From the NCBI RefSeq assembly GCF_000420245.1, contig NZ_ATUO01000014.1, positions 1-38,010 of the forward strand: a stretch of DNA of 38,010 bases, in the 5' to 3' direction. Below, in pieces: positions 10,014-24,120 of this stretch; the stretch's first letter is position 1; each line of letters opens with the position of its first letter. The notes beneath the pieces were generated by a model. The model had not been told where the DNA came from. It did no database searches and saw only the letters and a list, made by a program, of their open reading frames with translations. Position numbers and translations under genes: made by a program. This DNA is from Psychromonas hadalis ATCC BAA-638 (GTDB lineage: Bacteria > Pseudomonadota > Gammaproteobacteria > Enterobacterales > Psychromonadaceae).

Positions 10014-10150
10014 TCAGATAGATGAAATTACTGATCCTCGCTCACTATTTCTCCAAAAAATACTGGAAATTTTGTTGTTTTTTTACTATTTTATATTTAT
10101 CATATACATCTAATCAATCACTCATTTGGATGTTTAAATATTGTAGCTAG

Positions 10151-10308
10151 AAAAAGGCAAGTTAAGGGAAACCTTAATACGCAAAGCCACCGGCCTGTCG
10201 ACGTTAGTCTATGGTAGCGGAGTTACCGAGGCGATAATTGTTATTATATCCCTCCACTTTTAAAATAATACAATGTCACTGAACGCTGAATGATCACTTT
10301 TGTGGAGG
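10151..10308 (+). promoter_or_regulatory. c-di-GMP-I (GEMM) riboswitch with SD-masking expression platform
   Basis: The aptamer spans about 10151-10233. It has a GTTAAGG-GAAA-CCTTAAT stem with a GNRA tetraloop (10161-10178), then the diagnostic ACGCAAAGCCACCGGCC (10179-10195), and GGTAGCGGAGTTACC (10213-10227), which differs at one position from the usual GGTAGCGGGGTTACC. Downstream, CCTCCAC (10251-10257) is exactly complementary to GTGGAGG (10302-10308), which contains the Shine-Dalgarno of the gene starting at 10314. Translation control is therefore likely. GCGGAG (10217-10222) and GAGG (10228-10231) in the aptamer could compete for the masking strand. Whether c-di-GMP turns the gene on or off cannot be read from the sequence. 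Confidence 0.88.
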
Positions 10309-10313
10309 CAAAA

Positions 10314-11735
10314 ATGAATCAGCAACTTAGCTTTGTAAACAAATGTTACCTTACTTTACTCGCCTGTTTATTGCTCAACTCGATGGCTTTTGCCGAAAGC
10401 TTACAGATAAATTGGGCAGATAATTCCGATAATGAAGATGTTTTTATTGTCGAAAAGCGTTTTTTGCAGAGTGATACTTTCCAGCGTATTGCAGTCCTTT
10501 CTGAAAATACCACGCATTATAATGATGCTGATGTGAACATTGATGAAACATATTGTTATCGTATCAGTGCGTTTAATCAAGCAGGGCAGAGTATTTCAAG
10601 TGAATCATGCATGAAGGTGACTGAAACATCTTCATCGCCATCTTTGCCTTCATCCCCCTCCACACCAGCTCCCTCTTATCCTGATTTTGTTGAGGCGTCT
10701 GGAAATATGTCGATATCCCATCAATTTATCGCAAGACCTGTAGATATAGAAATAGGAGATAAAGAGTTCTATTCCTTTAAAAATAATGCGTTATATAACG
10801 ATTGGTACAGCGAAGATGAGATATTTAATGTGAATTTTTACGTAAATGAAGGCCGTGTTGGGCATCATGATCTCGATTATTTTAGCTTCCAGCAACAGGG
10901 TGAGGAACTAGAAAACGGCTATGCGAGCATGAAATTTAATACAGAAAATAGCCTGTCTTTTGTTCTACAGGGAAATGGGAGCGAGCAAATTGCAACCTTA
11001 TATATGAAAGCGGGCGCTTGGAGCAGTGATGCCTCCAGTATTATTGTGACTGTGGGTGATGAAGTGGAGGTTATTACATTGCCAAAAGGCTACAGCTGGT
11101 TTTATTTTTCTGTAGATATTGAGTTTGATGGGACAGCACCCGTTACTATTACCACGGACAGTGAGCGAGCTGGTTATAGCTCAGTGATGTTTGCTGGGTT
11201 GGTATTGAACAATGAAAATAATGCCAATGTAATTAAATATGCCTCTATGGTAGATGTGGATAGCAATTTTGGCGATAAGATTGATATTAGTGAAATGAAG
11301 TTTATGACCTCGCGTGGTGAAACTGGCAATGAAGATAACTCGGGTGCGAGCATTGAATCTTTAGATTTTTATGGGAAAGGTAAAATATATAATAGTCGCT
11401 ATGTTTATATTAACCCTAACGGTGAAAATTACACTGGTTATCGATATATGGGCTGGAGCGAGTCAAATGGCGTAGCGATAAAACTGAAAAGCGCAGAATC
11501 TCAAGTTAGCAACGTCTCTCTTTACTTTAAAACAGGTATTTGGAGCCATGAGGCTAGTTTTGTAGAGCTGATGATTAACGGAGAAAGTCAGTTAATTGAA
11601 ATCGCTAAAGGGTATCGCTGGTATTATATGAAAGTTGATATTGAATTTGAGGGGGAATTAGATCTTGACTTGCATCCATATGAGCAAAGAGGGGGGTATA
11701 GCGCACTGGGGTTTGCGGGGTTAACACTTAATTAA
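10314..11735 (+). CDS. Secreted Fn3-like protein with a duplicated C-terminal domain, riboswitch-controlled
   Basis: The 473-residue protein has a signal peptide ending at about SMAFA, then an Fn3-like module (residues 27-100; WADNSDNEDVFIVEK, YCYRISAFNQAG). A Ser/Pro linker follows, then two copies of a domain of about 165-175 residues. The copies share KAGAWSSDAS/KTGIWSHEAS, KGYSWFYFSVDIEFDG/KGYRWYYMKVDIEFEG and ERAGYSSVMFAGLVLN/QRGGYSALGFAGLTLN. I do not recognise this domain; it is probably a beta-sandwich. There is no PEP-CTERM tail or lipobox, so release to the surface or matrix is inferred. GGAGG lies five bases before the ATG at 10314, so the upstream in-frame ATG at 10290 is rejected. 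A c-di-GMP riboswitch precedes it. Confidence 0.85.
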   Translation: MNQQLSFVNKCYLTLLACLLLNSMAFAESLQINWADNSDNEDVFIVEKRFLQSDTFQRIAVLSENTTHYNDADVNIDETYCYRISAFNQAGQSISSESCMKVTETSSSPSLPSSPSTPAPSYPDFVEASGNMSISHQFIARPVDIEIGDKEFYSFKNNALYNDWYSEDEIFNVNFYVNEGRVGHHDLDYFSFQQQGEELENGYASMKFNTENSLSFVLQGNGSEQIATLYMKAGAWSSDASSIIVTVGDEVEVITLPKGYSWFYFSVDIEFDGTAPVTITTDSERAGYSSVMFAGLVLNNENNANVIKYASMVDVDSNFGDKIDISEMKFMTSRGETGNEDNSGASIESLDFYGKGKIYNSRYVYINPNGENYTGYRYMGWSESNGVAIKLKSAESQVSNVSLYFKTGIWSHEASFVELMINGESQLIEIAKGYRWYYMKVDIEFEGELDLDLHPYEQRGGYSALGFAGLTLN

Positions 11736-11809: not shown

Positions 11810-12364
11810 TTAAGCTTGTTTTTTACGACGAGCAGCACCAAAACCAACTAATGCAAGACCTAGTAGTGCAATTGTTGCTGGAGCAGGAACTGCTGAAGCT
11901 GAGAATGTGAATTTACCATTTTCAATACCAGTTGAATCATCTGCAGAGAATGTCCATGTACCAGCAGTATCAGCATAACCAACACCTTTTAAAGTACCTG
12001 AACCCGCCAGGCGGATAAAAGTGGTGTCTGCTTGATTTAAAGTGATAGATTCCAAATCAAATGTAAATCCACCCACAGCCCATAGTGGACCTTGTAACAC
12101 AAGAGGAGCGAATGAAGTGATGTTGTTGAAAGTAACAGGTGTCAATACGTTAAGTGCTTGGTAATCGCCAGCAGCAAGAAAAGTAAATCCAGCAATAAAA
12201 TTTAATGATGTTACTGCATCTTTATTATTATTTAATGTTGCTTCTGCAGCGCCAAAAAAATCTAGTTTACCAGTAATCTCTTCAAGAGCTGGAGTAGCAA
12301 ATGTAGATGTTGATGCTACTAAAAGTGTCGCCGCAGCAACAAGCTTTAAAAGTACGTTTTTCAT
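11810..12364 (-). CDS. PEP-CTERM sorting-domain protein
   Basis: The 184-residue secreted protein has an N-terminal signal peptide (cleavage near STFA-TPA). A cysteine-free, probably beta-rich body is followed by a C-terminal exosortase signal at residues about 159-184: the Pro motif VPAPAT, a hydrophobic helix (IALLGLALVGFGA) and the basic tail ARRKK. The variant PAP in place of PEP occurs in this family. Exosortase would recognise and cleave this tail during export. AAGGA lies five bases before the ATG. A sigma-54 promoter about 80 bases upstream and the linked PrsR gene indicate PrsK/PrsR control. The body's function is unknown; matrix or surface roles are typical of the class. Confidence 0.92.
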   Translation of the reverse strand: MKNVLLKLVAAATLLVASTSTFATPALEEITGKLDFFGAAEATLNNNKDAVTSLNFIAGFTFLAAGDYQALNVLTPVTFNNITSFAPLVLQGPLWAVGGFTFDLESITLNQADTTFIRLAGSGTLKGVGYADTAGTWTFSADDSTGIENGKFTFSASAVPAPATIALLGLALVGFGAARRKKQA

Positions 12365-12442: not shown

Positions 12443-12459
12443 AGCATGTAGTGTGCCAA
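12443..12459 (-). promoter_or_regulatory. Sigma-54 (RpoN) promoter of the PEP-CTERM gene
   Basis: The minus strand reads TTGGCACACTACATGCT, matching TTGGCAC-N5-TTGC with one mismatch and the obligatory GG-N10-GC spacing. The predicted transcription start is near 12432, giving a leader of about 68 bases to the ATG at 12364. PrsR, encoded nearby, has the GAFTGA loop required of sigma-54 activators. Confidence 0.85.
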
Positions 12460-12739: not shown

Positions 12740-13291
12740 ATGCATAGGTTTTCATGGATGAAGCAAGTAATTACGTCTGTTTTTTTATTACTGTTTTTAT
12801 CAGCGTGTATTGAAAGTGATTCAGAACCCTCTCCCCCTCCTAGCTTGGGAACGTCAGGTGAGGAACAAGCTGAATTGATAACAAAAGAAGAACCTGTAAC
12901 AGCACCACCTGTTGCAGTACCACCTGTAACAGCGCCACCTGTAACAGCGCCACCTGTTGCAGTACCACCTGTAACAGCGCCACCTGTTGCAGTACCACCT
13001 GTAACAGTACCACCTGTTGCAGTACCACCTGTAACAGCACCTGCTATCGTAGTCGCGCCGGTATTAATTGAGTGGCTTGATAATTCTGATAATGAAGATG
13101 GTTTCATTGTTGAGAGAAAAGCAGAAAGAGAGGCTAGCTTTACAAAGGTGAATTATCTTATGCCTGATGCAACTCATTATATAGATGATAGTTTATTAGC
13201 TGGTATCTATTATTGTTATAGAGTGATTGCTTTTAACCAAGCGGGTAGTACTTCGTCCGATGAAGTTTGTATTGATGCACTTTATAAATAA
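12740..13291 (+). CDS. Lipoprotein with Pro/Val repeat stalk and Fn3-like module
   Basis: The 183-residue protein has a lipoprotein signal with lipobox LSAC (Cys23). An acidic Ser/Pro segment and a low-complexity stalk follow (residues about 51-102), built from PPVAV/PPVTA pentapeptides. A C-terminal Fn3-like module (106-183) closely parallels that of the riboswitch-controlled protein: WLDNSDNEDGFIVERK, THYIDDS and YCYRVIAFNQAG correspond to WADNSDNEDVFIVEK and YCYRISAFNQAG. A stalked module displayed from a membrane is inferred. GGAG lies five bases before the ATG. The shared module suggests duplication and a common partner. Function is unknown. Confidence 0.8.
   Translation: MHRFSWMKQVITSVFLLLFLSACIESDSEPSPPPSLGTSGEEQAELITKEEPVTAPPVAVPPVTAPPVTAPPVAVPPVTAPPVAVPPVTVPPVAVPPVTAPAIVVAPVLIEWLDNSDNEDGFIVERKAEREASFTKVNYLMPDATHYIDDSLLAGIYYCYRVIAFNQAGSTSSDEVCIDALYK
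12891..13046 (+). repeat. In-frame 15-base tandem repeats (Pro/Val stalk)
   Basis: About ten 15-base units alternate between GTTGCAGTACCACCT and GTAACAGCGCCACCT types and encode VAVPP/VTAPP. Such near-identical units can expand or contract in frame and change the stalk length. Confidence 0.9.
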
Positions 13292-13475: not shown

Positions 13476-16115
13476 CTAAAGATCTTTTACCTCTAACCAA
13501 TGTTGCTCAATGTCTATATTACGGGGAGCTAATTGATGCGCTTGTTGAATCAGTGTTTTCGCTTGCTCTATGTTGCCCGACTTATATAAAATCCAACCAT
13601 ATGTATCGACTATTGCCGCATTTTTTGGGGCGAGTGTAAACGCTCTTTCAGCCAGTTCGGTTGCTCGATTGTTATTTGTGATGAAATATAACCATGCTGC
13701 ATTATTCAGGCTTGTCAGGTTATTGGGGTCTTGTGCTAGTATTTTTTCATACAACGCTAAAGCACCTTGTTCATCTCCTTTTTTCTGTAATAGCAGGGCG
13801 TTGTTGAGAGCCACAAATAAGCTTTCAGGTGCTTGCTTTTGCCACTGTGCTAAAAATAGCACCGCTTGCTGTTTATCCCTCTGTTGAAGTAGTGCATAGC
13901 GTTTTCGTGCCACTTGTTCATTGTGAGTTACCTGCCATTCTTCCTGTAGAATGTTGAGAGCTTTATTGGGATCATTCTCTGCTAATGCAATCTCTGCTTT
14001 ATAAATTGAGATGATAGGGTTGTTAGGTAAGATGACTTCAACTTGTTTTATGACCTTTTTTGCCTCGCTTAACTGTTTCGATTCAATCTCTATTTTTGTT
14101 AGTAATATTAATAGTAAAGGATGCTCTGGCGTACCTTGCAGTGCAGTTAAGGTGATTTTTCTCGCTTTATTAAACTCTTTGTCGGTCAGGGCAAGAATAG
14201 CGCGCTGATAATCTATCTTTTTCTGTAGGTCGGTTAAATAGGGCTGTAGATTATTTAGCAATTGCTGTGATGCTTGCTCTATATGCACTGCTGCTTGCTG
14301 TATATTGCGTTGTTGTAGCTGGGCGTCAGCTAAAACAAGTGCCAAAATAGCGGGATCGTGGTTTTCTGGCAATCGATTATGGGCTTGTTCAATATCTAAC
14401 GCTTGTTTGATTTGGCTAAACACAAAACCTTGATAACCTTTTAGCTCTTTAGGGTGAAATAGAATGATATTTCGATAAGCGCTTTGTGTTGCTTGCCAGT
14501 TCTGTGCCTGTTGTTTGCTCTGCGCTAGTCCATATAATCCTGTTAAATTATTTTCTTGTTGTGCTAAAACCGCGCTGAAAAGCTTATCGGCTTGCTGATA
14601 CTGCTTACGATATAGTTTGTATTTAGCGATAAGTAATTGTGTTTCTAAACTGTTGTTTTTGGTTGTTTGCAGTTGCTGTATATACTGTTGTGTCGCTTTG
14701 TCTTTTTTAAGAAAGATTAATTTTTTCAAATAAGCGGTTTGCAAGTGGATATTAGTCGGATTGTTTTTTAACGCGTTTTGTAAAATAGCGTGTGCTTTTT
14801 CATGATCGGCAGGGGTTACCTTGCTGTAATAGTTCGCAGACAAAAGCGCTGCTTTATCACTGTTGGGAAAAAGTTTTTCAATCCTGTTTAAGGCAAATTT
14901 TGCTTTATCAAATTGTTGTTGATCCATGGCCGCTAATAGATACAAGGTTAATGTTTCGTAGCTGTTTTCGGTTGCAATTATATTTTCTAGCATGGTTAAA
15001 ACAGCCGCTGAATTATCAAGTTTTAGCTGTGTCATTGCATACAGTTGTGTCAATTTTGCGGAGTTTTTTTCTGGATCAATAATGCCATTTAAGTATTTTT
15101 GAGCACCTTTAAGATCTCCCTGCGTATAGAGGATCACACCATATAAGGTCAATGTTTTTTTATGGCCTGGTGCGATTTTTAATATCTTATCAAGTGTTTG
15201 TTTAGCGAGTTTGAACTCTTTGTTTTGGTATTGTTTTGTCGCCTGTGCATAATTTTGATTGATAGACGCGGCTTCTGGAAATTCATCGGCTAAAATTCGA
15301 GAATACAGCAGCGCTTCTGAACTGCGTCCTTGTGAGGTTAATACCTCTGTCAGAGCTTGCAATATGCTAATACGTTCAGGGGTGAAGATATCAGAAGAGG
15401 GGATCACTGTGAGTGCGAGTGAAAGTGTTTTTTCTGCCTCGCGAAAATTATTTTCATTAATCAGCAGGTAACTTTTTAATATTAATGCTTCACTATTTTT
15501 TGCATCGCTATTAATGGCGCGATTGAGTAGTGAGATGGCATCTGGTATATCATTTGCGAGCGCAGATATCTGCGCTTGCCCAATGAAGGCATCTGCTTGG
15601 TATTTTGATTGTTTTTCTAGCGTTTTAAAGAGTGCTAATGCTTGCTCAAATTTTTGTTCACGCAAGTGTATTTGCGCTTGCTCTTTCATTAATCGATAGG
15701 GTTGTCGTTGTAATACATCGTTATTTTCTTCAATTAATCGTTTTGCAGAGATGAGCTTATTTTCTTTTTGATAAGCTTCTAACAGTAAAAAATAGTACTC
15801 ACTATTTTTACTGTTTTTATACTTTGTTAAAATAAAACTGGATGCTTCTGGTTGCTCTAGTTGCAGGTAGATTTTGGCAAGCATAAGGTACCCATCAACT
15901 TGTTCAGGGTAAGCCACAATAGCATTTTTAGCAGCCACTATAGCCGCTTTAAACTGAAACTGTTCTAAATAGCTTTCCCCTTGTTGTGTATATTGGTTTA
16001 AAGGTGCTTTTTGTGGCGCTGTAGGCTCACCACAAGCGGTCAAAAGCACACTGCTAGCGAGTATGATTGCTGTGAGCATTTTTTTATTATTAAATCGTGT
16101 TTTGATAAAGTTCAT
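13476..16115 (-). CDS. prsT: PEP-CTERM system TPR lipoprotein PrsT
   Basis: This 879-residue protein has a lipoprotein signal with lipobox LTAC (Cys28), followed by tetratricopeptide repeats across nearly the whole length (for example ALILKSYLLINENNFREAEK and the C-terminal AAIVDTYGWILYKSGNIEQA). Length, lipobox and position next to prsR match the PrsT family of XrtA/PEP-CTERM loci, where it is thought to help assemble or export polysaccharide or sorted proteins at the periplasmic face. GGAA lies about five bases before the ATG. It is the last gene of the minus-strand string and ends at a strong terminator. Confidence 0.88.
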   Translation of the reverse strand: MNFIKTRFNNKKMLTAIILASSVLLTACGEPTAPQKAPLNQYTQQGESYLEQFQFKAAIVAAKNAIVAYPEQVDGYLMLAKIYLQLEQPEASSFILTKYKNSKNSEYYFLLLEAYQKENKLISAKRLIEENNDVLQRQPYRLMKEQAQIHLREQKFEQALALFKTLEKQSKYQADAFIGQAQISALANDIPDAISLLNRAINSDAKNSEALILKSYLLINENNFREAEKTLSLALTVIPSSDIFTPERISILQALTEVLTSQGRSSEALLYSRILADEFPEAASINQNYAQATKQYQNKEFKLAKQTLDKILKIAPGHKKTLTLYGVILYTQGDLKGAQKYLNGIIDPEKNSAKLTQLYAMTQLKLDNSAAVLTMLENIIATENSYETLTLYLLAAMDQQQFDKAKFALNRIEKLFPNSDKAALLSANYYSKVTPADHEKAHAILQNALKNNPTNIHLQTAYLKKLIFLKKDKATQQYIQQLQTTKNNSLETQLLIAKYKLYRKQYQQADKLFSAVLAQQENNLTGLYGLAQSKQQAQNWQATQSAYRNIILFHPKELKGYQGFVFSQIKQALDIEQAHNRLPENHDPAILALVLADAQLQQRNIQQAAVHIEQASQQLLNNLQPYLTDLQKKIDYQRAILALTDKEFNKARKITLTALQGTPEHPLLLILLTKIEIESKQLSEAKKVIKQVEVILPNNPIISIYKAEIALAENDPNKALNILQEEWQVTHNEQVARKRYALLQQRDKQQAVLFLAQWQKQAPESLFVALNNALLLQKKGDEQGALALYEKILAQDPNNLTSLNNAAWLYFITNNNRATELAERAFTLAPKNAAIVDTYGWILYKSGNIEQAKTLIQQAHQLAPRNIDIEQHWLEVKDL

Positions 16116-16152
16116 AATCGTTCCATCTGTATTGCTTACGTTGTTAAAATAA

Positions 16153-17499
16153 TCACGAGCTCATATTGTATTTTTTCATTAAGTCATAAAGTGTTGGTCG
16201 GGTGATGCCCAGTGTTTTGGCTGCTGCTGAAATATTGTTATCACTAGCGATAAGTGCTTGCTTGAGGGCGCGAACCTCGGCATTTTTTCTGATCTCTTTC
16301 AGATTAAGAGCGCTACTCTCTATCTTGCTTAAACCAAGATCTAATGCGCTGATATATTTTAGCTCACACATGATGGTGGCGCGTTTAATTTTATTTTCCA
16401 TTTCACGTACATTGCCAGGCCAACTGTGGTTTTCAATGGCATTGATGGCATCTTCAGAAAAACCAATAATATTGAGTTTTTGTTTTTTGACAAATTTATT
16501 GAGTAGATATTTGGCGAGTAATATCTTATCTGAGCCTCTATCTTTTAGTGCAGGAATGTCTATCTGTATCTCGGAAATACGATAAAAAAGATCTTCTCGG
16601 AACTCTCCTGACGCTATCATCTCATCAAGATTTTTATGTGTTGCACAAACAATGCGTGTATCAATAGCAATCTGTTTACGACCCCCGACACGTTCGATAA
16701 CACGCTCTTGTAAAAATCGCAATAGTTTTGCTTGTAAATGCAGGGGCATATCACCGATTTCATCAAGAAAAAGTGTGCCTTTGTGCGCCTGTTCTATTTT
16801 ACCAATAGTGGTTTTTACTGCGCCTGTAAATGCGCCTTTTTCATAACCAAAGAGTTCACTTTCAATTAAGTTTTCAGGAATTGCAGCACAATTAATCGCG
16901 ATAATATTATGCTCTTTTCTTGGGCTGAGTTGGTGCAGAGCGTTAGCAAGCACCTCTTTTCCTGTCCCACTGTCACCGAGCAATAAGCAAGATACGTCAG
17001 TCGGGGCTACTTTTTCGATCATTTTACAAATTTTAAGCATCTTCTCGTCGCTGGCAATAAGACCATTTAACATCGATTCTTGATGTTGGCTGAGGTGGCG
17101 ATTTTTCTCTTCTAAATCATGTATGTGAAAGGCGCGTTGTACAATAAGATCCAATGTATCGGGGTCTACGGGTTTCGCATAAAAGTCATAAGAGCCTAGT
17201 TTAATCGCCTGCATTGCATGTTGATTACCCTCATTGCCGGTCATGACAATCACTTTCATGTGTGGATTAAGGTGTAATGCTTGTTGTAGTAGTTCAAAGC
17301 CCTCTTTTACGCCATCTTCATCAGGGGGTAATCCGAGATCTTGAATCATTACTTTGGGCTCATGTAAGCGAATGGCGGCCACTGCATCTTTTTGATTGGC
17401 CGCCACCACTACTTGATAATCAGAGAAGTGCCATTTTAATTGTGTTTGTAGCCCTTTATCATCTTCGACAATTAATAGGGTTTCTGCTTTAGTTTTCAT
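16153..17499 (-). CDS. prsR: PEP-CTERM-box sigma-54 response regulator PrsR
   Basis: The protein of about 448 residues is an NtrC-type activator. It has a receiver domain (acidic pocket Asp13/14, phosphoacceptor Asp54 in IQDLGLP, Lys109) and an AAA+ domain with Walker A GDSGTGKE (175-182) and the sigma-54-contacting GAFTGA loop (222-227). The C-terminal Fis-type helix-turn-helix is NISAAAKTLGITRPTLYDL. Together with PrsK it forms the two-component system of XrtA loci; in Zoogloea such a pair with RpoN activates PEP-CTERM genes. A longer frame starts at 17538 inside the preceding gene, but GAGGAG six bases before the ATG at 17499 marks the real start. The only clear sigma-54 promoter seen here precedes the PEP-CTERM gene. 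Confidence 0.93.
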   Translation of the reverse strand: MKTKAETLLIVEDDKGLQTQLKWHFSDYQVVVAANQKDAVAAIRLHEPKVMIQDLGLPPDEDGVKEGFELLQQALHLNPHMKVIVMTGNEGNQHAMQAIKLGSYDFYAKPVDPDTLDLIVQRAFHIHDLEEKNRHLSQHQESMLNGLIASDEKMLKICKMIEKVAPTDVSCLLLGDSGTGKEVLANALHQLSPRKEHNIIAINCAAIPENLIESELFGYEKGAFTGAVKTTIGKIEQAHKGTLFLDEIGDMPLHLQAKLLRFLQERVIERVGGRKQIAIDTRIVCATHKNLDEMIASGEFREDLFYRISEIQIDIPALKDRGSDKILLAKYLLNKFVKKQKLNIIGFSEDAINAIENHSWPGNVREMENKIKRATIMCELKYISALDLGLSKIESSALNLKEIRKNAEVRALKQALIASDNNISAAAKTLGITRPTLYDLMKKYNMSS

Positions 17500-17512
17500 T
17501 AATAACTCCTCT

Positions 17513-18799
17513 TTAATGGCTAAAACGAACAGTGGCAATTAGCCTTGTTTCGTCATAACCATTCATTTGTTCATTATTTAGCTGCTCTTCGTACTGTGCC
17601 GTCAATGAAAAAGTTAGTTTGGGATGGAAACGGTACTCACTTGATAAGCTAGTTAACCACTGCTGTTTATCAAACTCTTTTTCGATATATGTTTGGCTAT
17701 AACTGGCGCTAAAACGTGTTGTTAATAGTGCCGTATGTTTCCAGCTTAATTGTGTGCTAATACCACTACGAGGCTTTACTTCACGTGTTATTAGTGGCGT
17801 TTCTTGTTGATAATAGAGGCTGTTGGTATTAGTGAATCGGGCATTGAATGCAAAGAAGTTGTGATCTAATGACACTCTATCGATCCAAAGTAGCTGCGTA
17901 CCATCAAAATTAATATCGCCACTGTCGGGGGTGTCTTTTCCTAAACCAAGAGATGAATCGGTTAATTCACGTTGCACACTTAAGCCAAGAGTGTTTTTCT
18001 GAAAGCGGTAATGATAACTAAATTGAAATATTCCACCCTCTTCATAACGATTTAGAATTGCTAAACGGCTATAACCTGCTTTTGCTAGGTAACTTCCGTT
18101 TCTTAAGTTGCCAGCGAGTGACATATCAACATTTATTTGTTCATAGGTGAGTTCGTAGAGTAAAAAATCTACTTCGCTGTATTGACTGCTTAACCGATAG
18201 GTCATTTTATTGTTTAAATCATGATACCAAGAGAGACTTAACCCATTACGGTCAGTATTTTGCTGCTTGTCATCACTTAATCGAACCGCTGTATAGGTAT
18301 AACGGGTTTCAAAGCCCGCGCGTTTTGAGTAGGGTAGACGCCACAGCGGACTCACGGTAAATACATCACGATTACCATTGTTGTTTGGCAGGTCAACACC
18401 TGCTTTATCTAGCAGATAACTGTGTCGAAAGTGGCTAAGATCTAAGAGTAGATTCTTGCTAAATATCTGCTGGCTAATGGTTAAGCTACCCGCAATATCA
18501 CTTTCATCTTCAATATCTGCTTCGCTGTAATGTGAATAATAGAGACCGTAATCTAATAGGCTATTGTTAGTGGCAGTGTGGTTTTGATAACTAACATTTA
18601 GATCGACTCGCTGCTCATAACCCGATTTTTGATTAGTATTTGTTTTACGAATGTTATCACTATGTGTGTGTTCAAAACCGAGTGAGATAGAACCCTCCCT
18701 TACTGAAGAGGGCATGATCTCTGCGTCGATATAACCCGTTAATAATAACAGGCTAGCAAAAGAGACCAGCGTAATTGAACGATTCATTTTTATACCCAT
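17513..18799 (-). CDS. PEP-CTERM-associated outer-membrane beta-barrel protein
   Basis: The 428-residue protein has a signal peptide (hydrophobic TLVSFASLLLLTGY). The mature part has many amphipathic strands with alternating aromatic and polar residues (RVDLNVSYQNHT, LSLSWYHDLNNKMTYRLSSQ, LTFSLTAQYEEQL) and ends in RLIATVRFSH, a typical outer-membrane barrel terminus. It fits the uncharacterised barrel family of PEP-CTERM exopolysaccharide loci and may be a polysaccharide channel; that role is inferred. The start is unusual: the ATG at 18799 and its GAGG lie inside a MITE-like repeat. The alternative ATG at 18787 has only a weak site (GGGT). Confidence 0.82.
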   Translation of the reverse strand: MGIKMNRSITLVSFASLLLLTGYIDAEIMPSSVREGSISLGFEHTHSDNIRKTNTNQKSGYEQRVDLNVSYQNHTATNNSLLDYGLYYSHYSEADIEDESDIAGSLTISQQIFSKNLLLDLSHFRHSYLLDKAGVDLPNNNGNRDVFTVSPLWRLPYSKRAGFETRYTYTAVRLSDDKQQNTDRNGLSLSWYHDLNNKMTYRLSSQYSEVDFLLYELTYEQINVDMSLAGNLRNGSYLAKAGYSRLAILNRYEEGGIFQFSYHYRFQKNTLGLSVQRELTDSSLGLGKDTPDSGDINFDGTQLLWIDRVSLDHNFFAFNARFTNTNSLYYQQETPLITREVKPRSGISTQLSWKHTALLTTRFSASYSQTYIEKEFDKQQWLTSLSSEYRFHPKLTFSLTAQYEEQLNNEQMNGYDETRLIATVRFSH

Positions 18800-19051
18800 G
18801 TTGCCTCAAGGTGCTTTGTCAGGCACAAGCTCGGTAACCAGAGCAAGGCGCGATATGAGCGAATGTATTCCCTTTGTGATTGTTGCAACGCCGGGCTGGT
18901 TTTCGAGCTTGCGCCCCGAAGGGCAAGGTAACTCGCACCAATTTGTGTCGTTATTAAATCTCGACTTAGCGCGACTCGGCTTCAATTTCATGCCTTGCAT
19001 CTTGGCGCAATTTCCCTTGCTGGCTTGGCACTTTGAAGTATCATGGGTATA
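18791..19051. mobile_element. MITE-like 261-bp element inside the exopolysaccharide gene string
   Basis: The ends are imperfect terminal inverted repeats: TATACCCATGTTGCCTCAAG on the left and, read from the right end inward, TATACCCATGATACTTCAAA. The interior is clearly more GC-rich than the flanks and encodes no credible protein. It fills the whole gap between the kinase gene, whose stop codon ends nine bases beyond the element, and the beta-barrel gene, whose first codons it contains. No transposase is present, so it would be non-autonomous. Confidence 0.78.
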
Positions 19052-19059
19052 TATCTTTA

Positions 19060-19794
19060 TCATTGATTATTAAACACTAAACCGGCAAGTTTATCTTTAC
19101 CAATGGTATCAATACCCGCTTCTATCTGTGCGTGATTAGATTTTCCATAACCGACAACCAAAATCGCCAAATCACAAATTGAAACCAATATTTGGCTTTC
19201 TGCATATAAACCAATCGGTGGCGTGTCCAAAATAATAAAACGATCGGGATAACGTGTCTTCACTGATTGCATGAAGGATTCCATCTGCTCAGATGAAAAA
19301 TGTTCGGCCGCGTTAATAACATTATTGCCAACAGGAATAACACGTACACGAGGAATGCCCGATGGATAGATAATGTCGGTAATGGCATCAGTATCATTTT
19401 CAAGGAAATTGGTTAATCCTAATGAGGGTGGTGTTTTTAAGTAACTACCAATTTTAGGATTGTAAATATTACAATCGATCACTAACGCTGTTTTTCTTTG
19501 GTCTAAGGCGATACTGGCCGCTAGGTTCATGGCAACATGGCTGGTGCCAGCGCCAGAACGAATACTGGTCACCATGCAGATGAAATTTTGGTTATTGGCC
19601 TTTTTTAATAGATTGGTACGCAATTCACGGTAAGCATTTAAGGTATCGGCATCATCAATTCCGGGATAAATTATTTTCCGCTCATCAAGCTCTTTGTGCG
19701 ATAGCAGTGATGTTTCCTGCATTCTTTTAATACCCGTGCGTAGAGGTTTTTCCGTTGTGACGAGTACTTGTTGTTCAGCTTCTGTATTAGACAT
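19060..19794 (-). CDS. CpsD/CapB-like polysaccharide co-polymerase kinase, degenerate Walker A
   Basis: The 244-residue protein aligns with bacterial tyrosine autokinases of exopolysaccharide systems: Walker A' with Asp107 (ALVIDCNIYNP) and Walker B FIILDTPP. The Walker A loop, however, reads SGAGTSH (80-86) where GEGK(S/T) is expected, so the ATP-contacting lysine is a threonine. There is also no C-terminal tyrosine cluster (it ends LVFNNQ). It may therefore be a structural or non-phosphorylating partner of the Wzz-like protein. AGGAGG lies eight bases before the ATG, and one base separates it from the Wzz-like gene, indicating co-transcription. Confidence 0.82.
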   Translation of the reverse strand: MSNTEAEQQVLVTTEKPLRTGIKRMQETSLLSHKELDERKIIYPGIDDADTLNAYRELRTNLLKKANNQNFICMVTSIRSGAGTSHVAMNLAASIALDQRKTALVIDCNIYNPKIGSYLKTPPSLGLTNFLENDTDAITDIIYPSGIPRVRVIPVGNNVINAAEHFSSEQMESFMQSVKTRYPDRFIILDTPPIGLYAESQILVSICDLAILVVGYGKSNHAQIEAGIDTIGKDKLAGLVFNNQ

Positions 19795-19795
19795 G

Positions 19796-21340
19796 CTAAA
19801 AGCCTCCTAATTCAATAATTTGCGCTAATGACAGCCCATATTTATGCCTTATTGCAAAGCCAGCATAAAGCAGTATCGCAATTGAATATAAAGCCAATAA
19901 AAACAGGTTTTCCATACGTCGACGTACTTTCTCTTTTTTAGTGGTGGCATGTGGCAAACTAGCTAATATTGGAATACCTTTAATGGTACTTAATTGATGA
20001 GCAAAACGGATGCGCCCATCTAATACTATTTTGGCCACAAATAAACCCATCACCAATAACAATGCAACAACCGGGCCTGCCATTAAAAAGTGGATGAAAC
20101 GGGCACCTGTTGGCGCGTTAGGGTAAGTCGCCGCTTCTTGTAATTTAAAATTAACACCTTGGCCTTGAATATCCAATACCATTGATATTCTTGCTTTCTC
20201 TTTTTTAGCAAGCATATCTTCATATTGCGCTTGAAATACACTGTAATCACGTGTTAATTCAGATAGCTCCGCTTTATTATTCGCGATACGTTTACGACGT
20301 TCGTAAGCCTCTCCAAGTAGCGAATTAAATGCTTTGGCACGGTTGTTTAATGTGCGTTTTTCTACACGGGCAGTTGACAGTTTACTACGTAACTCTTTGT
20401 AAAGTGGATTGAAGTCTGAGTCAATGGCCTTTTTAGGCTTATCTTTTTTATCTGCATCACGTATGTTTTTTTTAATATCTGCAATTTGATAAGTTAATTC
20501 AATAATGGCCGGGTAGTCATCTTGATAGCTTAGTTCTAGCGTGGCTTTTCTCTTTTGCAACTCTTGCAGTTGGGCATGGTAGATAGATGCTTCAAAATCA
20601 CTATTGGCAAAACGGCTCTCTTTAGAGAGTTGTGACTTTAAAGACCAGATGCGTGTATCGCTCTCTTCAATTAAAATATTCATCTCTTCAATCGCACTGC
20701 GTAATGTTGCAATACGCGCACTTACTTGCTCCTCTGTGCCATCAAAATTGTTTGATTGGAACTCTTTTAATTTGGCTTCTGCCGATAATAGCAGTGCTTT
20801 GTAAGCAACGGTTTGTTGATCAATAAAGTTATAGGCACTACGACTCTCTTCTCGTTTCGAGTTGGCACTGTCCTCAATGAACAGTGTGACCACTTTATTG
20901 ATGGTGATAAAAGCGCGATCTGGATCACTGTCTTTATAAGTGATTTTAATGTAATTTTTTGACTTGCCATTAATCGATAAATTATTGCGCAGATGCCCCA
21001 TTTTAAGATCTCTTGCCTGTGCATTTGGAAAAGTATCTTTGCCGTAAACATCATCAATCACTTGGTTTAAGATACGCGGTGAGTAGATAATATCGCGTAC
21101 TTGTGTGGTTCTATTTTGCTTAATACCTGTGATCGATGTTTTACTGCCCAATAATGGTCTGATAATATTTTGGTTATCAGCAAAAATAGTCAGTGAGGTG
21201 ACAAACGTTGATGGTCTTAACATACCAATCACCATCACCATAAAACTGATGGCAATGATGGTTAATGCCACTTTGAATTTACGTTTACAAAGCTCACGCC
21301 AAACAACAACGATATATTTGAAAATTTCATTTAATTCCAT
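19796..21340 (-). CDS. Wzz-family polysaccharide chain-length determinant (XrtA-type)
   Basis: The 514-residue inner-membrane protein has an N-terminal membrane helix (about 21-40, VALTIIAISFMVMVIGML) and a long periplasmic region with coiled-coil segments (about 175-380). A Pro-containing motif (PNAPTGARF) leads into a second membrane helix, and an additional helix lies near the C terminus (LFLLALYSIAILLYAGFAI). This is the Wzz/GumC-like layout of PEP-CTERM exopolysaccharide loci, where it controls chain length and couples synthesis to export. It sits between the exporter and the kinase genes, two or fewer bases from each. No kinase domain is fused to it. Confidence 0.88.
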   Translation of the reverse strand: MELNEIFKYIVVVWRELCKRKFKVALTIIAISFMVMVIGMLRPSTFVTSLTIFADNQNIIRPLLGSKTSITGIKQNRTTQVRDIIYSPRILNQVIDDVYGKDTFPNAQARDLKMGHLRNNLSINGKSKNYIKITYKDSDPDRAFITINKVVTLFIEDSANSKREESRSAYNFIDQQTVAYKALLLSAEAKLKEFQSNNFDGTEEQVSARIATLRSAIEEMNILIEESDTRIWSLKSQLSKESRFANSDFEASIYHAQLQELQKRKATLELSYQDDYPAIIELTYQIADIKKNIRDADKKDKPKKAIDSDFNPLYKELRSKLSTARVEKRTLNNRAKAFNSLLGEAYERRKRIANNKAELSELTRDYSVFQAQYEDMLAKKEKARISMVLDIQGQGVNFKLQEAATYPNAPTGARFIHFLMAGPVVALLLVMGLFVAKIVLDGRIRFAHQLSTIKGIPILASLPHATTKKEKVRRRMENLFLLALYSIAILLYAGFAIRHKYGLSLAQIIELGGF

Positions 21341-21342
21341 AA

Positions 21343-21951
21343 TTAAAATACACTCTCAGGAATAATTAAAATATCAGATGGGCGTAATACGTAATTTGTA
21401 GTCAGAATACCTTCATGAAGAATTTCATCTACATTAATTGGGTATGACTCAAGACCACTGGGTGTTTTTCGGTACAAAATTGCACTATCAGCATTGGCAA
21501 AATCAGTTAAACCACCCGCCTCTAAAACTAAATCTAATACCGTAATATCTTTATAGAAAGGAATAGAGAGTGGTGTGTTAACGGCGCCTGTAATACGAAT
21601 GCGGTTACGGTAAATCGCACTATTTGCAGCCGTTACAATAATGGTTACATTAGGAGAGCGGATATATTTATTAAGTTTTTTAGCGATCTTTTTGGCAAGC
21701 TTTTCAGGTGTTAACCCCGTTGCTTGCGCATCGCCAATTAATGGCATCGATATCTGCCCGTCTGGGCGCACGGGAACACTGAGTGAGAGCTCTGCATTTT
21801 GCCACACATTAATAAATAGCTGGTCACCGTTACCAATTTGATATTCTGCAATGCTAATATCATCTTCAAAAGGGGTGATCTTGGTAGTGGGTTGGGTTGT
21901 ACACGCGCTTAACAATGTTAGGCATAAAACCATCACTATTTTACGTTTCAT
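21343..21951 (-). CDS. Polysaccharide export lipoprotein (Wza/EpsE-like)
   Basis: The 202-residue protein has a lipobox LSAC (Cys17), a Poly_export domain (IGNGDQLFINVWQNAELS, VRPDGQISMPLIGDAQATG) and an SLBB-type C-terminal part (RIRITGAVNTPLSIPF, VLDLVLEAGGLTDFA). It should form part of the outer-membrane export channel for the exopolysaccharide. It is shorter than E. coli Wza, as is usual for EpsE-type proteins of PEP-CTERM loci, and lacks a separate C-terminal membrane-spanning helix; the nearby beta-barrel protein could complete the channel (inference). It is followed closely by the Wzz-like gene and preceded by prsK with a 33-base gap. Confidence 0.9.
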   Translation of the reverse strand: MKRKIVMVLCLTLLSACTTQPTTKITPFEDDISIAEYQIGNGDQLFINVWQNAELSLSVPVRPDGQISMPLIGDAQATGLTPEKLAKKIAKKLNKYIRSPNVTIIVTAANSAIYRNRIRITGAVNTPLSIPFYKDITVLDLVLEAGGLTDFANADSAILYRKTPSGLESYPINVDEILHEGILTTNYVLRPSDILIIPESVF

Positions 21952-21984
21952 TTTGCTTCTCTCTTATTAATTAAATAACTAATA

Positions 21985-24036
21985 TTAAATAAATACTGAC
22001 TTTGCATTGTGGGGTATATAAATTGAAAATTTACTGCCGACCTTTAAAGTGCTTTCAACAAAAAACTGCCCTTCTAATGCATGAATAATTTCGCGTATTT
22101 GGTACGCACCTAGCCCCATTCCTTTCTCTTTTTTGGTGCTATTAAAGGGTTGAAATAGGTCGTTACTGATAAACGCTTGGCTCATGCCACAACCCGTGTC
22201 TAAGACTTCAAGCCAAATGTCATTGTTCTTCTGACCTAGGGTGATAATAATTTTTCCGCTGTCTGGTGTTGCATCTTGTGCATTTTTAATCAGGTGATTA
22301 AGCACCATTAATAATTTTTCAGCATCTGTTTTAAGGTTGATGGTTTCGTTATTAATCACTAAAGTGGGCAGAGGTAATGCATTTTTATTCATCTCAACCG
22401 CCTGTTTTAATAACAAGCTTAAATTAACCCGTTTATTTTCATTTACATGTTTACCCTGTAATTTAATCAGTAGCTTATCCATTTTTTGCACTGAGTTTGC
22501 GATAGTATCAATGGCATCATCTACAAATTCAGGGTGGTGTTTAAATTTCTCTGCATTCTTCACCACTAAAACCTGCTGTGCGATGAGGTTTTTAATGTCG
22601 TGAATTGCAAATGCACTTACTTTGTTAAACATATCAAACTGTTGATTTTGAACTAATTTCTCATGAGCTTGTTGATGGCTGATATAACTGGCAATTTGTC
22701 GGCCAGTTAACTTCAAAATATCTAAATCTTCCCAAGTGAGTTGATTGCTAACACGTTGCTGAGATAAAACCACAAAACCAATTAATTCTCTCTCTGTATT
22801 GAGTGGCACAATGACCCAACTATCTTGAGTGTTTTTTAACCAATTTGGGAGGTGTGCATTGGTTGCTTTATCAAGCTCGCTACTGTTCTGTGTTGGTTGA
22901 AATATCCACTCTTTCTTTTCCAGTAATTGAATAAACTCACTGTGATTGCTTTGTATTGGATTGTCGGATGATAGGGTGCTGTTAATGGAAGAGACCATCG
23001 AATAAAACTGTGGTCCTTTTATCCAAATTGTACCGCTTTGATATGAAAAAAGTTTAAGCATCGCTTTTAATGATGTTTCATAACTATTACCGCCGAGAGT
23101 AAGTAGTTTGTCTAGCTTTATCCATTGCTGTTTATAGTCATACTTTTGAGAAAAAAAGTGTTTGCTGGTCCATACAACAACAGTAAGACGGGCTTTTTCT
23201 GAAAAAGAGAGTGCAATAATGACAAAGAGTGCCAGCACATACAGCATGATTTTTGATGCATTAAACCAATTCACATCAAAAAAGTTAAAGAGGTAACTCA
23301 ACAGTGCCATTAGTAATAAAAAACTGCCTACCAGTGTGAGGCTAGTATTAAACAATATGACTGAATTAGAGAGTTTAAATTGTCCTCTTTGTTTTAGTTG
23401 AGGCGCATAAAAAATAATGCTCAGTGCTAAAATTAATGATGTTGCTGAGCTAATAAAACCACGGGTGTGCCAGAGGTTTTGGCTTTGTTCTACAAAAAGT
23501 AATGCATTAGAAAAAACAACGATGTCATAAGCAAAAATGGTAAACGCACTTAATGCAACTAACTTAGCCATGCGGCTAGAGTGATCATGGCGCAACAATT
23601 GCTCACATATGATGATGCCTAACAAACAAAATAATATTTTCAAATAGAGCCATAAAACAGCGAAAGGCAGTAGGGTGACTTCGAGGCTTAATGAATAAAC
23701 AAATGCGACCATGAGTATCGGAATAGTCGTAAATAGTGATATTGACCAGCAACGAGGAAGTCTTGTGTTGCGTGATAACATTAATAAACTCAGTAACATT
23801 AACAAAAGTGCTAGATAATGTAGTGTTTCGAGAAGGGTAAACTGTAGGCTGCTAACTAACGGGCTATCAAGCTGATTTGGTATGCTTAAGTGCCAAATTG
23901 CAGAGGTAATGGCACAAATTAAAAAGCTTATTTTTATACGAGTTATGCGTATCTTAAGGAGGACGATGACCGCTAGCGCGATTTCAACAGAGCTTAGTAA
24001 TAGGTCACTAAATTCTATATTTTGATAAAAGTCCAT
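21985..24036 (-). CDS. prsK: PEP-CTERM system sensor histidine kinase PrsK
   Basis: The protein of about 683 residues has an N-terminal block of roughly eight or more membrane helices (to about residue 285) and a GAF-like domain (about 310-450). A kinase core follows, with H-box AIHDIKNLIAQQ, N-box NHLIKNAQDATP, G1 box DTGCGMS and G2 box KGMGLGAYQI. The layout and locus match PrsK, the partner of PrsR in XrtA systems. The signal it senses is unknown. The frame opens with a TTG at 24051, but the ATG at 24036 is the more ordinary start. It heads the minus-strand string, behind a sigma-70-like promoter at 24121-24150. Confidence 0.9.
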   Translation of the reverse strand: MDFYQNIEFSDLLLSSVEIALAVIVLLKIRITRIKISFLICAITSAIWHLSIPNQLDSPLVSSLQFTLLETLHYLALLLMLLSLLMLSRNTRLPRCWSISLFTTIPILMVAFVYSLSLEVTLLPFAVLWLYLKILFCLLGIIICEQLLRHDHSSRMAKLVALSAFTIFAYDIVVFSNALLFVEQSQNLWHTRGFISSATSLILALSIIFYAPQLKQRGQFKLSNSVILFNTSLTLVGSFLLLMALLSYLFNFFDVNWFNASKIMLYVLALFVIIALSFSEKARLTVVVWTSKHFFSQKYDYKQQWIKLDKLLTLGGNSYETSLKAMLKLFSYQSGTIWIKGPQFYSMVSSINSTLSSDNPIQSNHSEFIQLLEKKEWIFQPTQNSSELDKATNAHLPNWLKNTQDSWVIVPLNTERELIGFVVLSQQRVSNQLTWEDLDILKLTGRQIASYISHQQAHEKLVQNQQFDMFNKVSAFAIHDIKNLIAQQVLVVKNAEKFKHHPEFVDDAIDTIANSVQKMDKLLIKLQGKHVNENKRVNLSLLLKQAVEMNKNALPLPTLVINNETINLKTDAEKLLMVLNHLIKNAQDATPDSGKIIITLGQKNNDIWLEVLDTGCGMSQAFISNDLFQPFNSTKKEKGMGLGAYQIREIIHALEGQFFVESTLKVGSKFSIYIPHNAKSVFI

Positions 24037-24120
24037 TTTAAAAAATTCCAAGTGTAATTGCTAAAATTCAAGGGGAAATCAGGGATAAACGCACTTTAAT
24101 GAAAGATGTTTTTTTATTCG

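Follow-up and report, generated by a model that had tools for sequence, protein, structure and literature searches.

The stretch of DNA analysed here, 38,010 nucleotides of the Psychromonas hadalis ATCC BAA-638 contig NZ_ATUO01000014.1 (the window), carries a complete class I cyclic di-GMP (c-di-GMP) riboswitch aptamer of the GEMM-I type upstream of the gene for a secreted protein, P0001. Long relatives of this protein are encoded in 16 of the 24 genomes of the genus, and these are exactly the genomes that possess PrsR (TIGR02915, above cut-off) and an XrtA-like exosortase (TIGR03109, always under the curated cut-off). We lean towards the view that P0001 serves the XrtA/PEP-CTERM exopolysaccharide system as a matrix or polysaccharide binder, and that its synthesis is governed by a translational OFF riboswitch responding to c-di-GMP. 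Coordinates are collected in Table 1; genomes, loci and contigs are given by our own labels (G, L and C numbers).

The aptamer is a full-length match to RF01051 (model positions 1-87 of 87; 70.6 bits; E 4.9e-12) and the only copy of this family in the source genome. The class had been proposed in an initial annotation made from the sequence alone, and the covariance search, scoring twice the gathering score of 35, bears this out; a chance or mis-called aptamer is ruled out by the same full-length match. The motifs on which that annotation relied were all located where it had placed them, namely ACGCAAAGCC at 10179-10188, GGTAGCGGAGTTACC at 10213-10227, the GAAA loop at 10168-10171, the CCTCCAC and GTGGAGG segments and the ATG at 10314. 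Its starting point of 10151, however, loses the first five aptamer bases. In the numbering of the Vc2 riboswitch, the ligand contacts G20, A47 and C92 presumably correspond to positions 10156, 10183 and 10226, and all three expected bases are present in the window. The class match leads us to expect that the aptamer binds c-di-GMP.

Both the aptamer and the spacing of the Shine-Dalgarno (SD) sequence are conserved in 16 aligned leaders of the genus, which lie upstream of two gene families: ten precede the P0001 gene, and six precede a sister gene for a short lipoprotein with a fibronectin type III (Fn3) domain. Immediately 5' of the aptamer these leaders become less similar to one another, an indication that transcription may start near 10145-10150. 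A conserved -10-like stretch is found there, in which a promoter scan found no sigma-70 consensus pair.

The base at position 20 bears on the identity of the ligand. An A-to-G change at this nucleotide moved a GEMM-Ib RNA from selectivity for 3',3'-cyclic GMP-AMP (cGAMP) to selectivity for c-di-GMP (PMC6456294), and 3 of the 16 leaders carry A20 (G006a, G021a and G022b). With G20 in the window, as in 13 of the 16 leaders, it is very improbable that the aptamer senses cGAMP or is promiscuous rather than specific for c-di-GMP. The three A20 leaders (L066, L063 and L061, respectively) may themselves sense cGAMP or be promiscuous; in two of them, G006a and G021a, the anti-SD of the P0001-gene type is degenerate.

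The association of P0001 with the exosortase system is seen at the level of whole genomes: a relative is encoded in all 16 genomes with the exosortase and PrsR and in none of the eight others (Fisher 1.4e-6, uncorrected for kinship and within one genus). Three of the eight genomes without P0001 are less than 90% complete (85, 79 and 51%), which weighs against this contrast; with these three dropped, the comparison becomes 16/16 versus 0/5. This phyletic match supports a link to the exosortase system more strongly than the initial annotation could. A P0001 copy is located at most 35 kb from the exosortase or PrsR gene in seven of the 16 genomes (G000, G006, G008, G011, G016, G021 and G023), and two of the ten riboswitch-bearing copies (G000 and G008) lie beside a PEP-CTERM cluster, in a scan spanning about 20 kb per side, or less at contig ends (G003, G009). 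So the functional link appears general in the genus, whereas gene adjacency does not.

The initial annotation had also suggested surveying homologues for upstream GEMM aptamers, and this survey found a riboswitch before the P0001 relative in ten of the 16 genomes; the genus-wide aptamer search used stricter filters that lose weak matches, and weak copies may therefore have been missed in the other six genomes. The family tree (18 rows) divides into a group of 12 proteins with a signal sequence and a group of six. The riboswitch is found in ten members of the first group (the exceptions being G015 and G018) and in no member of the second, whose five complete N-termini start with a hydrophobic anchor; the available reading of the sixth, G021b, begins at an internal start. 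The aptamer, together with the P4 hairpin described below, is kept in homologues down to 48% protein identity.

Some further features of these loci were observed. By eye, the homologues in G018 and G015 (L043, L095) are preceded by a similar inverted repeat, of the ACTACC..GGTAGT type or shorter, and a like repeat precedes the aptamer of G009a, G019a and G020a; it could be an operator or the terminator of the previous gene. Three GEMM-I copies occur within approximately 1 kb in G021 (L064, C134:23304-24314), while G006 has one pair spaced within 0.6 kb and another copy 6.5 kb off (L065, C1:3752507-3759584). The gene after the nearest of the G006 copies resembles a fimbrial-type chaperone by eye, and position 20 appears to be C.

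P0001 begins with a signal sequence (approximately residues 1-27, judged by eye), followed by an Fn3 domain, a linker of low confidence in the structure prediction and two homologous C-terminal domains. While scans of the single sequence against Pfam and NCBIfam matched no model, a family profile matched titin chains with an E-value of 3.3e-17, and the two C-terminal domains are 37% identical over 99 residues; the secreted Fn3/duplicated-domain product described in the initial annotation is therefore upheld. Foldseek with the whole protein returned only low TM scores. With domain 1 alone, families 35 and 36 of the carbohydrate-binding modules (CBM35 and CBM36) were among the top matches (TMq 0.37-0.42, E 2e-4 to 9e-4), alongside glycan-active enzymes and beta domains of insecticidal and binary toxins. 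We read domain 1 as having a generic glycan-binding-like fold rather than as a member of a CBM family, and P0001 is possibly sugar-binding. That this likeness is at the level of the fold only, with a TMq of about 0.4, weighs against the proposed role; a matrix- or polysaccharide-binding protein nonetheless appears the most likely identity. A scan of the genome contigs for related loci returned two distant Fn3 matches only. P0001 was also considered as an exosortase substrate and rejected, as NCBIfam and Pfam scans found no PEP-CTERM tag and the C-terminus reads GFAGLTLN. P0001 resembles the known XrtA/PEP-CTERM (EpsH) systems in its exact co-occurrence with their components in the genus and its proximity to them in seven of the 16 genomes, and differs in lacking the tag; the exosortases of the genus also differ in scoring below the TIGR03109 cut-off.

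The leader of the P0001 gene can be read as a four-strand switch (GCU / GAGGC / CCUCCAC / GUGGAGG), in which pairing of strands 1:2 and 3:4 would alternate with pairing of strands 2:3. Strand 1 and the GGC of strand 2 (10230-10232) would form P1, which closes the ligand-bound aptamer. Alternatively, the GAGG of strand 2 (10228-10231) would pair with the CCUC of strand 3 (10251-10254) to form P4, while strand 3, the anti-SD, may instead pair with strand 4 and mask the SD. In the presence of c-di-GMP, 1:2 and 3:4 would be favoured; formation of P1 on ligand binding would free the anti-SD, and the SD would therefore be masked. Without ligand, 2:3 would be favoured, leaving the anti-SD occupied and the SD free. 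This geometry predicts an OFF switch, although the sign is deduced from the strands themselves. The target gene of Vc2 differs from the P0001 gene. Vc2 of Vibrio cholerae, a GEMM-I element, is a translational OFF switch in which P1 is decisive for ON/OFF switching (PMC9262584); the likeness lies in a class I aptamer and in translational control, which is predicted here, while the window leader differs in its intervening P4, in an SD placed within a start-codon hairpin and in a sign that is predicted only.

The strands are conserved to differing degrees. GCU and AGGC are both found in 16 of 16 leaders, and the P4 pairs, with strands set by hand from folds, are likewise standard in all 16. Compensatory changes in P4 replace the outer G-C by A-U in two leaders and the inner A-U by G-C in five; the hairpin is weak (-3.0 to -6.6 kcal/mol), and its z-scores were obtained on fragments cut at the end of the pairing strand, which favours P4. 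The 7-nucleotide complement to the SD exceeds chance, being reached in 5 of 1000 shuffles of the linker. Pairing of at least 5 bp between anti-SD and SD is available in eight of the ten P0001-gene leaders and in none of the six sister leaders: the longest complement measures 7-9 bp in G000, G003, G009, G012 and G020; G008 and G019 reach 6 bp, G022 reaches 5 bp (P 0.14), G006 and G021 have 3 bp, and the sister leaders have 4 bp, which is at chance level. In seven of the ten P0001-gene leaders the shuffle P is below 0.05, for related sequences and without correction. The SD is located in or by the loop of the start-codon hairpin in seven of the ten P0001-gene leaders (not in G009, G019 and G020) and in the sister leaders, while G009 and G020, which have no such hairpin, possess a 9-bp anti-SD match. 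By eye, the GEMM-I leaders of other genes (L005, L012) show an aptamer, a hairpin, a CCTC-type anti-SD and an SD before lipoprotein-like genes.

Folding calculations bear on the sign of the switch. When GAGGC was blocked in a shorter fragment, accessibility of the SD was lowered in six of the ten P0001-gene leaders (in the window from 0.91 to 0.21), as the OFF switch predicts. Several observations weigh against it, however. With eight further coding bases and GAGGC blocked at 37 °C, the SD of the window remains accessible (1.00 to 0.98), and a smaller response is seen in the other five leaders (e.g., from 0.99 to 0.48 in G003a); at 10 °C masking is clear only in G008a and G019a. Between the apo and holo states, the energy needed to open the ribosome-binding site at 37 °C changes by no more than 0.9 kcal/mol in 12 of 15 leaders, the exceptions being G009a (+5.6) and G021a (+1.7), towards OFF in the case of G009a, and G003b (-2.9, towards ON); G022b gave no value, and the window mapping had nine of ten P3 pairs standard. 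Furthermore, in G009a and G020a the SD is masked in either state, P1 shows no covariation in the 16 leaders, and the anti-SD is missing from G006a, G021a and all six sister leaders, which do retain P4. Anti-SD pairing also faces competition from another hairpin, which encloses the SD and AUG and occludes them. In a test of whether P1 is exclusive with an SD-freeing structure, the geometry fits a Vc2-type OFF switch, but folding energies give no consistent sign. Of the masking of GTGGAGG by CCTCCAC set out in the initial annotation, the exact complement and its recurrence in most P0001-gene leaders stand, whereas it is absent from the eight leaders named above and equilibrium folding does not settle on one direction.

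The same data can be read in the opposite sense, as an ON switch in which P4 hinders expression and c-di-GMP relieves this by drawing strand 2 into P1, so that the matrix protein would rise at high c-di-GMP; P4 would act either as a weak hairpin resembling a terminator, ahead of a U-rich stretch, or as part of a fold in which the start-codon hairpin stays closed. It is common for c-di-GMP to increase biofilm proteins, which speaks for such a switch, and all six sister leaders have 6-7 U among the 8 nucleotides after P4. The architecture of GbpA differs from that of P0001. Vc1, also a class I aptamer before the gene for a secreted binding protein, the attachment factor GbpA, differs from the switch proposed here in acting positively (PMC4744006). 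It is because P4 persists without the anti-SD in eight leaders, because of the U-rich sequence in the sister leaders and because of the positive action of Vc1 that we retain the ON switch as a possible, though less likely, explanation. Against it, no intrinsic terminator was found after the aptamer in the three stretches scanned (the window and two of the six sister leaders, L058 and L061), P4 is weak, the U tract is poor in P0001-gene leaders (3-5 U in 8) and the anti-SD is left unexplained. A further possibility is that the window leader binds its ligand but has lost switching, the start-codon hairpin fixing a constant low translation. In the window leader this hairpin dominates both states and takes approximately 9 kcal/mol to open at 37 °C, but the compensatory changes in P4, and the retention of aptamer and P4 among distant homologues, render such a loss improbable.

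The genes surrounding P0001 place the riboswitch beside a PEP-CTERM locus in the window. In the cluster at 13476-24051, the PrsR, PrsK, chain-length and export proteins score above their cut-offs, while the matches to PrsT, the tyrosine kinase and TIGR03016 fall under theirs. The initial annotation had described the riboswitch gene as next to exosortase-type sorting genes; the cluster is indeed present, but the exosortase of the source genome is encoded on another contig (C5; 171 bits, under the TIGR03109 cut-off of 208), and such adjacency was seen, within the flanks scanned, for the two riboswitch-bearing copies mentioned above. As to the proposed sigma-54 control, a candidate site precedes one gene and not the other. 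The convergent PEP-CTERM gene is preceded by the only exact TTGGCAY-N6-TGCW match in the window, one-mismatch matches being at chance level; this site agrees with 10 of 12 positions of the consensus, and the G008 homologue of this gene also has a sigma-54-type site (10/12). Within 300 bp of the riboswitch gene, a GG-N10-GC scan found no good site, the best agreeing at four of 12 positions, and a sigma-54 promoter for the P0001 gene within this distance was rejected; nor did any of 21 P0001 homologues score above 8/12 in the 300 bp upstream. The two neighbours therefore look separately controlled, with PrsK/PrsR probably driving the PEP-CTERM gene.

Table 1. Features of the riboswitch locus and its surroundings (window positions)
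Feature	Position	Strand	Details
-10-like conserved stretch, putative promoter end/transcription start region	10130-10149	+	Similarity among 16 leaders drops upstream
c-di-GMP-I (GEMM-I) aptamer	10146-10230	+	RF01051; 16 leaders
Strand 1, putative 5' side of short P1	10146-10148	+	GCU with GGC 10230-10232
P4 hairpin	10228-10254	+	GAGG (strand 2) with CCUC (strand 3), inner GAUA/UAUC; 16 leaders
Anti-SD CCUCCAC (strand 3)	10251-10257	+	7-bp complement to 10302-10308; shuffle P 0.005
Start-codon hairpin	10291-10321	+	SD in loop of UUUUG/CAAAA, AUG in extended stem; -11.9 kcal/mol, z -2.9 (43-nt fragment)
GTGGAGG with Shine-Dalgarno (strand 4)	10302-10308	+	Sequence
Secreted protein P0001	10314-11735	+	473 aa; signal ~1-27, Fn3 ~29-103, linker, two homologous beta-sandwich domains
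CBM-like beta-sandwich domain 1	10689-11216	+	AlphaFold pLDDT 95.5, pTM 0.91 (domain alone)
Domain 2, copy of domain 1	11223-11732	+	37% identity over 99 aa
PEP-CTERM protein, convergent neighbour	11810-12364	-	PF07589 26.1 bits, cut-off 20.7
Sigma-54-type -24/-12 site before PEP-CTERM gene	12443-12459	-	TTGGCACACTACATGCT, 0 mismatches to TTGGCAY-N6-TGCW
Fn3 lipoprotein P0002, homologue of relatives' second riboswitch target	12740-13291	+	No riboswitch found here
XrtA/PEP-CTERM exopolysaccharide cluster	13476-24051	-	PrsT-like, PrsR, outer-membrane protein, tyrosine kinase, chain length, export, PrsK

The sister gene carries the riboswitch in six genomes (G003, G009, G012, G019, G020 and G022). 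Its homologue in the window, P0002, has a PPVTA/PPVAV-type repeat tract ahead of the Fn3 domain, and a search for a second, degenerate aptamer before 12740 found none.

The pairing of GEMM-I with PEP-CTERM functions was then considered beyond the genus, in a sample of 369 genomes of the class, with exosortase-positive genomes defined by TIGR03109 at E 1e-20 or better as the sole exosortase family. TIGR03109 was found in 112 of these genomes and GEMM-I in 67 (116 rows); besides that of the window, 28 genomes carry both and hold 52 riboswitches. Of the 115 non-window rows, 86 were examined, comprising all 52 exosortase-positive ones and 34 of the 63 others (two of which had no open reading frame, ORF). 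First downstream ORFs were picked by script, with some contigs ending early, and PEP-CTERM-like tags were called by regular expression. On this basis, the first downstream ORF is PEP-CTERM-like in 9 of the 52 exosortase-positive cases versus 0 of 32 others (Fisher P 0.012). Among the other ORFs of the surveyed loci, 5 of 477 (exosortase-positive) and 3 of 210 (others) were so flagged, and the comparison of 9/52 with 5/477 gives a Fisher P of 6e-7. Each genome has from fewer than ten to a few tens of PEP-type matches, and we take PEP-type genes as approximately 1% of genes at most; at a background of 1.2%, 9 in 52 would arise with a probability of approximately 1e-8, or 2e-6 with same-genus pairs collapsed.

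The nine targets are spread over nine genomes and seven genera. The proteins of L134, L135, L154 and L157 pass the curated cut-off and that of L119 passes it in one of two scans, whereas L128, L146 and L147 lie approximately 2 bits or more under it and L167 reaches 13.2 bits against 25.35. In G208, an XrtA-type export gene (TIGR03027; 141 bits, under the cut-off of 180) follows a GEMM-I element that scores 37.6 bits, and the ORFs downstream of this gene resemble outer-membrane, chain-length and tyrosine-kinase genes by eye. We consider it probable that riboswitches for cyclic dinucleotides repeatedly act as direct regulators of the exosortase/PEP-CTERM exopolysaccharide systems of Proteobacteria, although four of the nine tags fall under their cut-offs and one conflicts between scans, which tempers this view slightly. 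The targets would differ by lineage: PEP-CTERM-like proteins in nine genomes, the export operon of G208, the Fn3/CBM-like accessory proteins described here and GSU1945 of Geobacter. At the G208 locus (L117:6800-11496), a strong hairpin and a T run were seen by eye directly before the export operon, and the exosortase is located 6 kb away. Fn3-type genes also follow GEMM-I in two genomes without TIGR03109 (L190, L198 and L199); L199 passes PF00041, L198 matches it under the cut-off, and L190 was recognized by eye only, without a Pfam match.

GSU1945 of Geobacter sulfurreducens provides a precedent for this arrangement. It is a fibronectin type III protein listed among GEMM-I-bearing genes (PMC10599522) and one of 13 GEMM-Ib transcripts (PMC8835794); GSU1943/1944 are PEP proteins (PMC10599522), and PrsK and PrsR are GSU1941 and GSU1940 (PMC7726332). 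The likeness extends to the GEMM-I element, the Fn3 annotation and the nearby PEP-CTERM and prsR/prsK genes. GSU1945 differs in that its GEMM-Ib element is reported as characterized for cGAMP binding, and it is likened to P0001 by annotation only. The claim in the initial annotation that no such case had been described was, therefore, too strong. None of the Geobacter source passages points out this riboswitch/PEP-CTERM arrangement, however, and a search of open-access literature, with subscription papers outside its range, found no statement in the accessible text linking riboswitches to PEP-CTERM/exosortase systems. The riboswitch class is already known; the novelty lies in the family that it targets, in the finding that this family occurs in exactly those genomes of the genus that have the exosortase system, and in the repeated association of GEMM-I with PEP-CTERM.

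To our knowledge, few studies have addressed the control of exosortase/PEP-CTERM systems, other than those on the PrsK/PrsR pair. The presence of a riboswitch in front of a gene whose product matches the exosortase one-to-one in its genus, and in front of PEP-CTERM-like genes elsewhere, offers a testable link between the main second messenger of biofilms and this widespread sorting and exopolysaccharide system, and places an unnamed family of Fn3 and CBM-like proteins within that system. If the wider proposal holds, the output of PEP-CTERM matrix would be set by c-di-GMP (or cGAMP) through riboswitches, alongside the sigma-54-dependent PrsK/PrsR pathway.

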